Source: Rhodococcus triatomae BKS 15-14 (GTDB taxonomy: Bacteria > Actinomycetota > Actinomycetes > Mycobacteriales > Mycobacteriaceae). From it: a DNA stretch of 64,000 nt. The stretch is from positions 62,001 to 126,000 of the forward strand of contig AODO01000006.1 of assembly GCA_000341795.1 (NCBI GenBank). The letters are read 5' to 3'. Both the position numbers and the translations under genes were made by a program. Positions 7,461 through 47,815 of the stretch are shown here, piece by piece (position 1 is the stretch's first letter; the number at the start of each line of letters is the position of its first letter). The notes beneath the pieces are model-generated. The model was given only the letters and a program-made list of their open reading frames with translations. It made no database searches and was not told the origin of the DNA.

Positions 7461-8744
7461 GTGACCCGGCCCCGCGCATCGCGCCTGAGCGTGGTCGACG
7501 AGATGTTCCTGCGGACCCACCGCGGCTACGGAACCCCGGTCGTGATGCAGGGCGTGTGGCGTGGCGGCGACGTCGACCCTGCCGAGCTCGTCCAGGTGCA
7601 CGAGGCGCTGGCACGAGGACCCCTGTCCCACACCGTCGTTCGGCCCGGCGTCCCCGGCGCACGGCCGCGCCGGAGGCCCGGAGCCGAGCCCTGGCCAGTG
7701 GAGTGGGCGTCACAGCCGATCGACCGCGACGCGACGGTCGAGTGGGCGGACGACGTCGCCTCGCGCAACGTCGACCCCACCCAGGGCGCGGGCTGGCGGA
7801 TCGCGGCGGCCCGGCTGCGCGGCGGCGGGACGGTGGTGTCCCTCGTGTGCTCGCACGTGATCACCGACGCGCACGGGCTCGCGGCGATCCTGGCCGCCGC
7901 GATGTCGGGCACCGCACTGCCCCCGGCGCCCGACCCGGCCCACCCGTTCCTCGACGACGTGCACGACGCGGTCCGCATGATCACCGTTGTCGGTGCCCGC
8001 ACGCTTCGCGCAGTCGCCGGACTGGCCCTGCATCCGTCCCGCCGTGCCGAACTGCGCTCCGCACCTGTGCGCGCTTTTGGTAGCCAGAGCTACCAAAAGC
8101 GCGCACAGGTGCCGGAGACACTGATCGTCGACGTGGACGCCGAGCGCTGGGACACCGAAGCGGCCCGCACCGGCGGCACCCCCAATTCGCTGCTGGTGGC
8201 CGTGGTGGCGGCGATTGCCGGGCGGCACGACACGGCCGTGCAGGTCAGCGTGCCGGTGAGCCGGCGAACCGCCGCGAACGGCGGCTCGAACGAGATCGAC
8301 ATGACGGAGTTGACGGTTCGGCCCACCGACACTCCCGCCGTCACGCGAACCCTCCTGCGCGAGGCCTACCTGCGTCCACCGATGTCCAGTCCGGCCGGGT
8401 TCCCGCCGGAACTGCTCCAGCTCGTTCCCGACCGGATCGCACACCGCCTCGCCCCCGATCCCGGCGAGCGCGACGTACTCTGCTCGAACATCGGGACCAT
8501 CCCCGCCGGGCTCGCCGACCTCGGCGGCGCGAGCGCCGACGCGATCGCGGCCCGCGCCGTACACCCCGGGATCGATCCCCGGCAGCTCGCGGCATCGGCG
8601 AACCGGCTGTCCGCGTACCTGTGCCGGCTGGGCGATCGCTACACCCTGTCCCTGGTCTCGAAGGATCGCGGACTGCGCGCGCGTACGACGGCCGTGCTCG
8701 CCGCTCACGGCATCACCGCGCACGGCTGGGACGACCCGGCATAG
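7461..8744 (+). CDS. condensation/acyltransferase-fold protein interrupted by a coding palindrome
   Basis: 427-residue protein of the condensation-domain/CoA-dependent acyltransferase superfamily (similar to WS/DGAT, Pap and NRPS C domains). The variant HxxxD motif is SHVITDAHG with His132 and Asp136; the first His of the usual HHxxxDG is Ser. The PVSRRT and CSNIGTIPAGLADLGG segments are typical of the C-terminal half. It may acylate a lipid or alcohol; the substrate is unknown. Residues about 199-219 are encoded by a near-perfect 24-bp-stem inverted repeat that keeps the frame open, so this region looks like an inserted repeat element. The GTG start follows the crotonase gene by 13 bp. Confidence 0.75.
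   Translation: MTRPRASRLSVVDEMFLRTHRGYGTPVVMQGVWRGGDVDPAELVQVHEALARGPLSHTVVRPGVPGARPRRRPGAEPWPVEWASQPIDRDATVEWADDVASRNVDPTQGAGWRIAAARLRGGGTVVSLVCSHVITDAHGLAAILAAAMSGTALPPAPDPAHPFLDDVHDAVRMITVVGARTLRAVAGLALHPSRRAELRSAPVRAFGSQSYQKRAQVPETLIVDVDAERWDTEAARTGGTPNSLLVAVVAAIAGRHDTAVQVSVPVSRRTAANGGSNEIDMTELTVRPTDTPAVTRTLLREAYLRPPMSSPAGFPPELLQLVPDRIAHRLAPDPGERDVLCSNIGTIPAGLADLGGASADAIAARAVHPGIDPRQLAASANRLSAYLCRLGDRYTLSLVSKDRGLRARTTAVLAAHGITAHGWDDPA
8055..8117. repeat. long perfect inverted repeat inside a coding sequence (dispersed palindromic element, copy 1)
   Basis: The arms 8061-8084 and 8089-8112 are perfect 24-nt inverted copies around a CAGA loop. Allowing one bulged C, CTCC/GGAG extends the stem by 4 bp. 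It lies wholly within the condensation-fold gene and is translated. The outer GCGCTCCGC, the CCTGTGC segment and the inner GGTAGC match the intergenic element at 46007-46069, so both belong to one repeat family. Confidence 0.9.
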
Positions 8745-30215: not shown

Positions 30216-30251
30216 ACTCGGGGCCGGTGCCGCCGGGCACCGGCCCCGAGT
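30216..30251. terminator. bidirectional hairpin terminator
   Basis: A perfect 16-bp stem with a 4-nt GCCG loop has arms at 30216-30231 and 30236-30251. It is G+C-rich, without a T-run, and lies between the convergent 91-residue gene and the universal stress gene. It probably ends both transcripts. Confidence 0.85.
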
Positions 30252-43748: not shown

Positions 43749-43794
43749 CGTAGCGTCCCGCACCCGGCGAGGGAACCGGGTGCGGGACGCTACG
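43749..43794 (-). terminator. 19-bp hairpin after the acetate-symporter operon
   Basis: Arms 43749-43767 and 43776-43794 are perfect inverted copies (19 bp) around an 8-nt loop. It lies 59 bp past the actP stop codon and just upstream of the SRPBCC promoter, so it probably insulates the two units. It lacks a T-run. Confidence 0.75.
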
Positions 43795-45946: not shown

Positions 45947-46006
45947 ACGCCGAGGTGTCGGATCGCGCGCCGGACGGTCGATCCGGCGCGACGAACGGTG
46001 TGCGGC

Positions 46007-46069
46007 GCTCCGCGCCTGTGCTCGAGTTCGGTAGCTCTGACCACCAAACTCGCGCACGGGCAGCGGAGC
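46007..46069. repeat. imperfect palindromic element (dispersed repeat, copy 2)
   Basis: The outer arms GCTCCGC/GCGGAGC are perfect. The inner CCTGTGC and GAGTT..GGTAGC pair imperfectly with one bulge. Order and sequence parallel the intragenic element at 8055-8117. It lies 3 bp beyond the stop codon of the second symporter gene, so it may also act as that gene's terminator. Confidence 0.8.
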
Positions 46070-46072
46070 TGC

Positions 46073-47815
46073 CTACAGGTCGCGCTCGCGGTCGCGACCG
46101 ACGCCGATGCGCTCGGGCGCGTGCATCTGGGTGAACGTGCGACCCACGTCCGCGGGGACGCGGGAGCGCGTCGCACGACTGACCACGACCATGACCAGGA
46201 ACGCCAGCGGCACGGTCACCGCCGCCGGATAGCCCACGACGACCGCCGCCCAGCCGCCCCACACCCGCTCCGGGGCACCACCGAGACCGGTGACGAGGGC
46301 CGCCGCTCCCGAACCGACACCGCCGACGATCAGACCCGCGGCCGCTCCGGGTGCGGTGAGTCCGCGCCACCAGATGCCCAGAACCAACAGGGGGCACAGG
46401 GTCGACGCGGCGACCGCGAACACCAACCCCACCGTGCGGGACAGGTCGATCGACGTCACCGTCAGCGCCAGCCCGAGGGGAACCAGGCCCGCTACGACCG
46501 CTGCGACCCGGAAGTCGCGGACCCGTCCTCGCAGGACGTCGGTGCTCAGCACGCCGGCGACGCTCACCAGCAGTCCGGACGACGTGGCCAGGAACGCGGC
46601 AATCGCGCCGGCCGCGACCAGGGCAGCCAGCAACTGTCCCCCCACACCCGAGACCACCGATCCCGGCAACAGCAGCACGGCCGCGTCGGAGGTGCCGGTG
46701 ATGAGCAGCTGCGGTACCCACAGGCGGGCGAACACGCCGAGCAGCGTGGGGAACAGGTAGAAGCCACCGACCAGTCCGATGACGACCAGCGCGGTCCGCC
46801 GCGCCGCCCGGCCGTCGGGGTTGGTGTAGAAGCGGACCAGCACGTGCGGCAGTCCCATGGTGCCGAGGAAGATCCCGATGATCAGCGAGTACACCTGATA
46901 GAGCGGGTGCGTGCCGCCGACACCCCAGCCCGGTTCGAGCCACTGCTCACCGGACGGCGGTGCACCCGCGACCACCGGCACCGGCGCGCCCGCGTCGAGG
47001 ACCAGCGCGGTGCCCGCGCCGAGCTCGTGCTCGCCGACCGCCATCGTGACGGGCCCGTCCACCGGACGTCCGTCGAGGGTGCCGGTGACCCTCACCGGCA
47101 GCGGCTCCGACACCTGGACGACGACGTCGGTGGTGACGTCGACGGTGGTCCGCTCCCCCACCGTCGGCGGGGCGGGTGTCCCGAGATCACTGGCGGTTCC
47201 GAAGAAGTGGACGGCGAGCACGAGCGCGGGCACCGCCACCGCGGTGAGCTTCAGCCAGTACTGGAACGCCTGCACGAACGTGATGGACCGCATGCCGCCC
47301 CCGACGACGGTGGCGATGACGATGGCTGCGACGACCACCGCACCCACCCACGCGGGCAGGCCGAGCAGAATGCCGAGCGCCAGACCCGCGCCCTGGAACT
47401 GCGGCACGATGTACAGCACGCAGATCACGGCCACGACGACCATCGCAAGCTGACGCAATCGCGTGCTGCCGAGCCGGAACTCGGCGAAATCGGGCACCGT
47501 GTACGCACCCGAGCGGCGCAGCGGCGCGGCCACGAACAGCAGCAGCCCGAGGTACCCGGCGGTGAATCCGACGGGGTACCACAGGGCGTCCGCGCCGTAC
47601 TTCGCGATCAGCCCCGCGACACCGAGGAAGGATGCTGCCGACAGGTACTCACCGGAGATGGCCGCCGCGTTCCACCGCGGCCCGACGCTCCGGGACGCGA
47701 CGAGGAAGTCGGAGGTGGTGCGCGCCAGACGCACCCCGTAGAAGCCGATCACGACCGTCGCGAGTGCGGCAGCGATCAGCGCGACGACCGTCACCGGTGG
47801 GATCGGTTGTCCCAC
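46073..47815 (-). CDS. second SSS-family monocarboxylate symporter, with large periplasmic insert
   Basis: 580 residues, about 13 TM helices. SSS signature: SGEYLSAASFLGVAGLIAKYGADALWYPVGF, GGGMRSITFVQAFQYWLKL, GTMGLPHVLVRFYTNPDGRAARR. An insert of about 100 mostly beta residues (about 205-310, TVGERTTVDVTTDVVVQVSE) between TM helices is absent from the ActP paralogue and presumably faces outside. It probably imports acetate, pyruvate or another monocarboxylate. It is followed (upstream) by its small subunit and a LytS/LytTR pair that probably regulates it. GTG start at 47815. Confidence 0.9.
   Translation of the reverse strand: MGQPIPPVTVVALIAAALATVVIGFYGVRLARTTSDFLVASRSVGPRWNAAAISGEYLSAASFLGVAGLIAKYGADALWYPVGFTAGYLGLLLFVAAPLRRSGAYTVPDFAEFRLGSTRLRQLAMVVVAVICVLYIVPQFQGAGLALGILLGLPAWVGAVVVAAIVIATVVGGGMRSITFVQAFQYWLKLTAVAVPALVLAVHFFGTASDLGTPAPPTVGERTTVDVTTDVVVQVSEPLPVRVTGTLDGRPVDGPVTMAVGEHELGAGTALVLDAGAPVPVVAGAPPSGEQWLEPGWGVGGTHPLYQVYSLIIGIFLGTMGLPHVLVRFYTNPDGRAARRTALVVIGLVGGFYLFPTLLGVFARLWVPQLLITGTSDAAVLLLPGSVVSGVGGQLLAALVAAGAIAAFLATSSGLLVSVAGVLSTDVLRGRVRDFRVAAVVAGLVPLGLALTVTSIDLSRTVGLVFAVAASTLCPLLVLGIWWRGLTAPGAAAGLIVGGVGSGAAALVTGLGGAPERVWGGWAAVVVGYPAAVTVPLAFLVMVVVSRATRSRVPADVGRTFTQMHAPERIGVGRDRERDL

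Follow-up and report, generated by a model that had tools for sequence, protein, structure and literature searches.

The strongest hairpin in a 64,000-nucleotide stretch of the Rhodococcus triatomae BKS 15-14 genome (contig AODO01000006.1, positions 62,001 to 126,000; hereafter the window) is a perfect palindrome read in frame inside a protein-coding gene, and it belongs to a dispersed palindromic element that occurs in this genus and, beyond it, in several others of the same family. We think it fairly probable that this is a palindrome dispersed at gene ends which occasionally enters genes in frame, and whose arms are kept matched by a process acting at the level of DNA. The repeat search of the window returned two 24-nt arms that are 100% complementary and 4 nt apart, and a hairpin scan ranked the resulting structure (8061-8112) first in the whole window, the runner-up having 19 pairs; a calculation by hand puts the chance expectation for random DNA with 69% G+C at about 6e-8 such hairpins per window. 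The host ORF is uninterrupted and reads the palindrome as residues 201-217, the 17-residue stretch APVRAFGSQSYQKRAQV, confirming the initial annotation in its description of a perfect 24+4+24 palindrome that leaves the frame of a coding gene unbroken [Table 1]. The 427-aa host protein matched no Pfam or NCBIfam family at E ≤ 0.001, an initial scan of genome contigs with this protein returned no relative, and a search of Rfam with positions 7900-8300 of the window gave five matches, every one of them far under its gathering score.

The same annotation had proposed kinship between this palindrome and an intergenic element at 46007-46069, a proposal borne out by the covariance model described below, which matches the second element (G000:C6:108010; window 46010-46065) with an E value of 7.9e-11. 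This second member is an imperfect palindrome, for which the repeat search at default settings gave no inverted repeat. Two other hairpins of the window may be mentioned here: a perfect one at 43749-43794, with 19-bp arms and an 8-nt loop, whose sequence is unlike that of the palindrome family, and a perfect 16-bp hairpin at 30216-30251 between convergent genes, the sole one that strong at the nine convergent junctions of the window.

Table 1. Features of the two family members in the window (positions are those of the window).
Feature	Position	Strand	Basis
Host gene, 427 aa	7461-8744	+	ORF list; element in a variable-length linker between conserved stretches (orthologue alignment)
Palindrome, left arm, 24 nt	8061-8084	+	Repeat search, hairpin scan
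Loop CAGA, 4 nt	8085-8088	+	Sequence, repeat search
Palindrome, right arm, 24 nt	8089-8112	+	Repeat search, hairpin scan
Short inverted repeat TGCGCTCCGCA	8053-8063	+	Position of the flanking short hairpin in many copies; 3-nt overlap with the left arm
Second family member, imperfect palindrome, intergenic	46014-46061		Covariance model (C6:108010) and gene context
Left short hairpin of second member, GGCGCTCCGCGCC	46004-46016		Flanking-hairpin scan
Right short hairpin of second member, GGCAGCGGAGCTGCC	46059-46073		Flanking-hairpin scan
TAG stop of the gene ending at the second member, 11 nt off the palindrome	46073-46075	-	Gene-end test

Allowing three or fewer mismatches, the half-site has 52 matches on one strand and 55 on the other in the 5.8-Mb genome (G000), against 0 and 3 for a reversed control, which sets the family apart from chance recurrence, and among the matches listed for this genome the half-sites are almost always paired, 4 nt apart. 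A covariance model built on 22 copies, in which 9 pairs had changed on both sides versus 5.2 after shuffling, yielded at least 136 rows at E ≤ 1 in the same genome; these correspond to 68 centres and a contig-edge fragment, with 63 centres at E ≤ 1e-3, the model having scored the best 150 of 4162 first-look candidates, such that weak copies may be missing. Searching genome-wide and in relatives, the check put forward with the initial annotation, thus found the element many times over at home and widely abroad: 15 of 61 genomes, its own included, were positive at E ≤ 0.01, as were all six of the genus, and at least 55 of 201 genomes of the family, in at least 10 of 31 genera, were positive at E ≤ 0.001 when up to 28 candidates per genome were scored. 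At the best 21 loci, mostly from the genus or family, the sequences agree at the foot of the stem (nearly all read CYGTGCGY) and the upper stem varies by genome. Three copies in G000 (L088; C49:12779, 19106 and 20239) are clustered in a stretch of about 7.5 kb, with about 1.1 kb separating two of them, and two loci of a genome from another family of the order (L061 and L069, G044) gave a weak match to a longer, differently shaped palindrome with the same GTGCGC base. A pattern scan of viral contigs gave 0 matches to the family, one family copy used as a query found no match among phage records, and the window copy found none among plasmid records; another copy gave 28-nt matches in three Neorhizobium plasmid records, which we judged to be due to chance, and carriage by phages or plasmids was dropped as a candidate. 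No description of this palindrome family was found in the open-licence literature. REP-like repeats have been counted in three other Actinomycetota according to the available portion of one report (PMC12306157), so that repeats of this kind are not new to the phylum.

The copies are concentrated at gene ends. With gene contexts predicted by our own codon-based gene caller, 34 of the 68 centres lie between convergent genes, 23 between genes of the same direction and 2 between divergent genes, while 7 were called intragenic and 2 have a single neighbour. The background was taken from 800 kb of the relative G004, where 105 of 652 closely spaced gene pairs are convergent and 100 divergent; the excess of convergent sites over it has a p of ~1e-10. 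Both sides of the element have a coding frame ending there in 36/68 cases, one side in 26/68 and neither in 6/68; two of the 62 copies thus accompanied are inside genes, and a gene end stands beside 60 of the 63 non-intragenic copies. Two of the seven intragenic calls (C16:50247 and C68:438001) were discarded on finding gene ends beside them. The same placement was met in other genomes, a gene end accompanying 21 of 25 sampled elements. Among the 57 best copies, 62 of 114 sides carry a short hairpin of 4-6 bp directly against the main stem (200 shuffles gave 7.2 on average and 17 at most), and these flanking hairpins vary in sequence while keeping their pairing.

Inside genes, five in-frame copies were found in the genome, in the host gene described above and in genes for an NRPS, an MmpA-like transporter, AftD and a protein named ResA-like from a match below its NCBIfam cut-off. 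Two frames are open, and all five copies are read in the same one (PVRxFGSxxYxxRAQ); the coding copies sit in loops or at the protein start. For the MmpA-like gene, to which 25 of 37 genomes gave a match, the eight orthologues among the matches listed over the site are 11-20 aa shorter; in G001 the match comes in two pieces with a break near the element site. The AftD site retains 15-20 of 22 Watson-Crick pairs in all six genomes of the genus, being weakest in G004, and four outgroups among the matches listed (24 of 37 genomes matched) are 5-11 aa shorter at this position. The solved chain 6wbx_A, which we take to be a mycobacterial AftD, lacks about 11 residues at the element site when aligned to the protein. 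The family model matches the AftD genes of G002 and G004 and has no match at E ≤ 5 in those of G001, G003 and G005. The element of the ResA-like gene is present in G000 and G004 and absent from the four other orthologues of the genus and from four listed outgroups. At the NRPS site (C16:21543), the G004 match consists of DNA 68-79% similar and was not taken as an orthologue. These alignments show the MmpA-like copy, found in one genome, and the ResA-like copy, found in two of six genomes of the genus, to be lineage-specific in-frame gains, presumably translated; the coding gains in the MmpA-like, AftD and ResA-like genes are of different depths in the tree.

The nearest orthologues of the host protein of the window's palindrome are found in G004 (76% identical) and G005 (63% identical), the three other genomes of the genus having no match to the host gene. 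It had been suggested that homologues might reveal the palindromic residues as an insertion; no gain in length appeared, the linker having an equal or nearly equal residue count in G004 and G005, and the orthologues carry diverged copies instead. In the outgroups of the orthologue alignment, the linkers are too variable in length to tell an insertion. Sought as a gain in length, an insertion was thus not seen at this site, given the near-equal orthologue lengths and the variable outgroup linkers. The best covariance-model matches in 120 kb of related loci are precisely the orthologous host-gene sites (L112 in G005 and L111 in G004), with E values, weak for 120 kb, of 0.03 and 0.09, respectively; 17 of 22 Watson-Crick pairs are left in G005, with a different upper stem, and 11 of 22 in G004. 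Both orthologues thus appear to hold diverged and partly decayed copies, and the host-gene copy is old, probably older than the split of G000, G004 and G005.

For 12 of the 68 centres, synteny identified the corresponding site within 800 kb of G004. A family member is found at six of these sites and an unrelated strong hairpin at two (C1:303816 and C18:6162); the others comprise a site with one short hairpin only, the host-gene site, the NRPS site, and a site with one weak member. At L075 (G000:C18:191301), where G000 has the full element and both short hairpins, the G004 counterpart has only the short GGCGAAGCC hairpin, a difference that could reflect an empty site or a precise deletion, and hence loss as well as gain. 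Compared in register, the arms of the six orthologous pairs have identities of 0.41-0.75, against an average of 0.70 for 55 G000 copies; the corresponding identity is 0.64 among the five best G004 copies and 0.66 across genomes, and two of the six pairs lie above the own-genome mean. These comparisons suggest that the hairpin often stays at a site while its sequence changes, and homogenisation within genomes is not clear from them. An ungapped comparison had pointed to concerted evolution, with 0.79 within G000 versus 0.35-0.75 for the six pairs, yet 0.63 within G004 versus 0.68 across genomes; the claim was dropped when, in register, the contrast shrank to 0.70 versus 0.41-0.75, two of the six pairs running in the opposite direction.

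Paired change was counted in 13 coding alleles drawn from five sites. Both sides have changed in 16 of the 21 pairs, and double-change cells number 41 versus 14.3 after shuffling (41 being reached in 0/500 shuffles) and 4-15 in the slid controls. When the AftD alleles, six in number, are taken by themselves, 17 double-change cells stand against 9.1 shuffled (0/500), although the count of pairs changed on both sides, 9 versus 7.3, was reached in 107/500 shuffles and that of pair types in 126/500. The arms of the coding copies thus tend to change together, and a hairpin can outlive its sequence, with decayed exceptions. We considered reinvasion from each species' own consensus as the sole cause of this pattern and rejected it, as the AftD hairpins of G001, G003 and G005 are no close match to the few copies compared from their own genomes, a likeness judged by eye against two copies in G001, two in G003 and one in G005. 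For other coding palindromes, template switching with quasipalindrome correction has been named as a source of matched arms in the accessible passages of one study (PMC6649704).

Paired changes that preserve strong stems in coding sequence are also what a selected RNA structure in the host-gene mRNA, acting on pausing, stability or processing, would leave behind. Selection on an mRNA hairpin should favour G-U over A-C mismatches on the coding strand, and no such preference is seen: the coding strand of the coding alleles has 9 G-U versus 20 A-C, and the counts are 19 versus 25 where a single gene end sets the direction and 1 versus 6 in intragenic copies. We read this as favouring a DNA-level process, with the reservation that the missing G-U bias (p 0.06 and 0.16) comes from few and related alleles and could be caused by codon constraints. 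The host-gene site of G004 has, in addition, lost half its hairpin, and the host genes that match a protein family are of different kinds, so that selection on RNA structure appears to us very improbable. Outside coding sequence, the copies might instead be terminator hairpins of the ordinary kind, bidirectional and arisen where they now stand, their shared sequence reflecting the preference of a factor with no dispersal involved and the coding copies being accidental. Strong hairpins are common at convergent junctions of G004 (26/105, versus 18/447 at same-direction and 0/100 at divergent junctions), which fits ordinary terminators, as does the unrelated strong hairpin at two of the syntenic sites, set against a family member at six. 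Textbook intrinsic terminators consist of a hairpin followed by a T-run, and TTTT was found within 12 nt behind the stem on just 1 of 136 sides. Given, moreover, the sequence common to 63 centres and the lineage-specific in-frame gains within genes, we regard terminators evolved in place as unlikely.

There is finally some small chance that the family is a true GTAG-class REP system, formerly moved by a RAYT transposase since lost from the genus. In the available passages of Di Nocera et al. 2013 (PMC3733652), GTAG REPs are described as lying near gene 3' ends, mostly between same-direction or convergent genes, often with TAG serving as the stop and with some copies in ORFs, and convergent placement near stops, TAG stops and intra-ORF copies are all seen here. 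Stops located 8-13 nt from the palindrome are TAG in 39/55 cases versus 126/562 background stops (the background taken from the element loci of the own genome is higher, 59/161, element stops included), and on 33 of 114 sides GTAG occurs no more than 25 nt beyond the core, versus a shuffled mean of 7.0. On sides without a gene end, however, TAG is present on only 1/38, suggesting that it may be kept merely as a stop, and G precedes TAG in 26/39 cases versus 62/126 in the background (p 0.07). The Y1 transposase (Y1_Tnp), the sole transposase family searched, was matched in neither the own genome nor any of the six genus genomes and in 6 of 61 genomes overall; one of the 15 model-positive genomes has a match, of 40 positions and an E of 1e-4. 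Of the small mobile or repetitive element of REP or MITE type first proposed for the window, the repetitive nature is upheld by the many copies, five of them read in frame inside genes, and membership of the GTAG/RAYT class is not, given the lack of a Y1 transposase match in the genus and the ambiguous tag.

Set beside known systems, a palindrome dispersed at gene ends shares with GTAG REPs its short palindromic form, its many dispersed copies (68 centres) and its mostly extragenic position at gene 3' ends (60/63). It differs from them in having no Y1 transposase match in the genus, in that TAG is nearly missing where no gene ends, and in the symmetry of its unit, whose main stem of 22-24 bp is flanked by short hairpins. 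GTAG repeats are listed for Proteobacteria, Cyanobacteria, Chloroflexi and the PVC group in the portion of the text at hand, where the word 'Actinobacteria' does not occur (PMC3733652). REPs of the CGTC superfamily, said in the same portion to be without a dedicated transposase, are similar in that respect (PMC3733652), but no clear CGTC tag stands out here (within 25 nt outside the core, CGTC on 27/114 sides versus a shuffled mean of 19.7; GACG on 16 versus 15.9). Rickettsia palindromic elements, which the accessible passages describe as lying in frame in unrelated protein genes and as encoding a conserved peptide (PMC10969869, PMC6649704), offer a parallel to the in-frame insertions absent from orthologues seen at the MmpA-like and ResA-like sites. 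As described there, these elements are about 150 bp long, about twice the present unit, whose copies are mostly intergenic at gene ends, and their repeats are reported to become less identical with time (PMC6649704), whereas the present coding arms show paired changes. The palindromes of nematomorph mitochondrial coding sequences likewise consist of inverted repeats that stay matched in genes, with template switching proposed as the cause (PMC6649704); they are perfect, mitochondrial and up to 142 bp per arm, and the passages at hand describe no single dispersed family among them. Compared by description, the palindrome family works like REPs and Rickettsia palindromic elements, yet is filed in neither.

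Under the reading we favour, that of a dispersed gene-end palindrome, the usual home of the element lies directly behind stop codons, foremost between convergent genes, where, judging from position, the intergenic copies would probably form the 3'-end hairpin of transcripts running in both directions. New copies would now and then arise inside genes and be read in one frame, and a DNA-level process such as quasipalindrome correction, rather than selection on RNA, would maintain the pairing of the arms. We tentatively entertain as possible the further idea that a palindrome of the Rhodococcus lineage, operating without a Y1 transposase, seeds gene ends and enters conserved genes in frame, as in AftD throughout the genus, and that DNA-level correction keeps its arms complementary there, with hairpin formation, and not the function of protein or RNA, dictating the codons carried.

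With this element, bacteria other than Rickettsia offer a setting for the in-frame entry of palindromes into protein genes and their persistence there. As the same coding hairpin can be compared across several species, selection on RNA, template switching of DNA and reinvasion become testable against one another. The element also constitutes a dispersed repeat that shapes gene ends and their stop codons in one actinobacterial family, at least 55 of whose 201 sampled genomes carry it.
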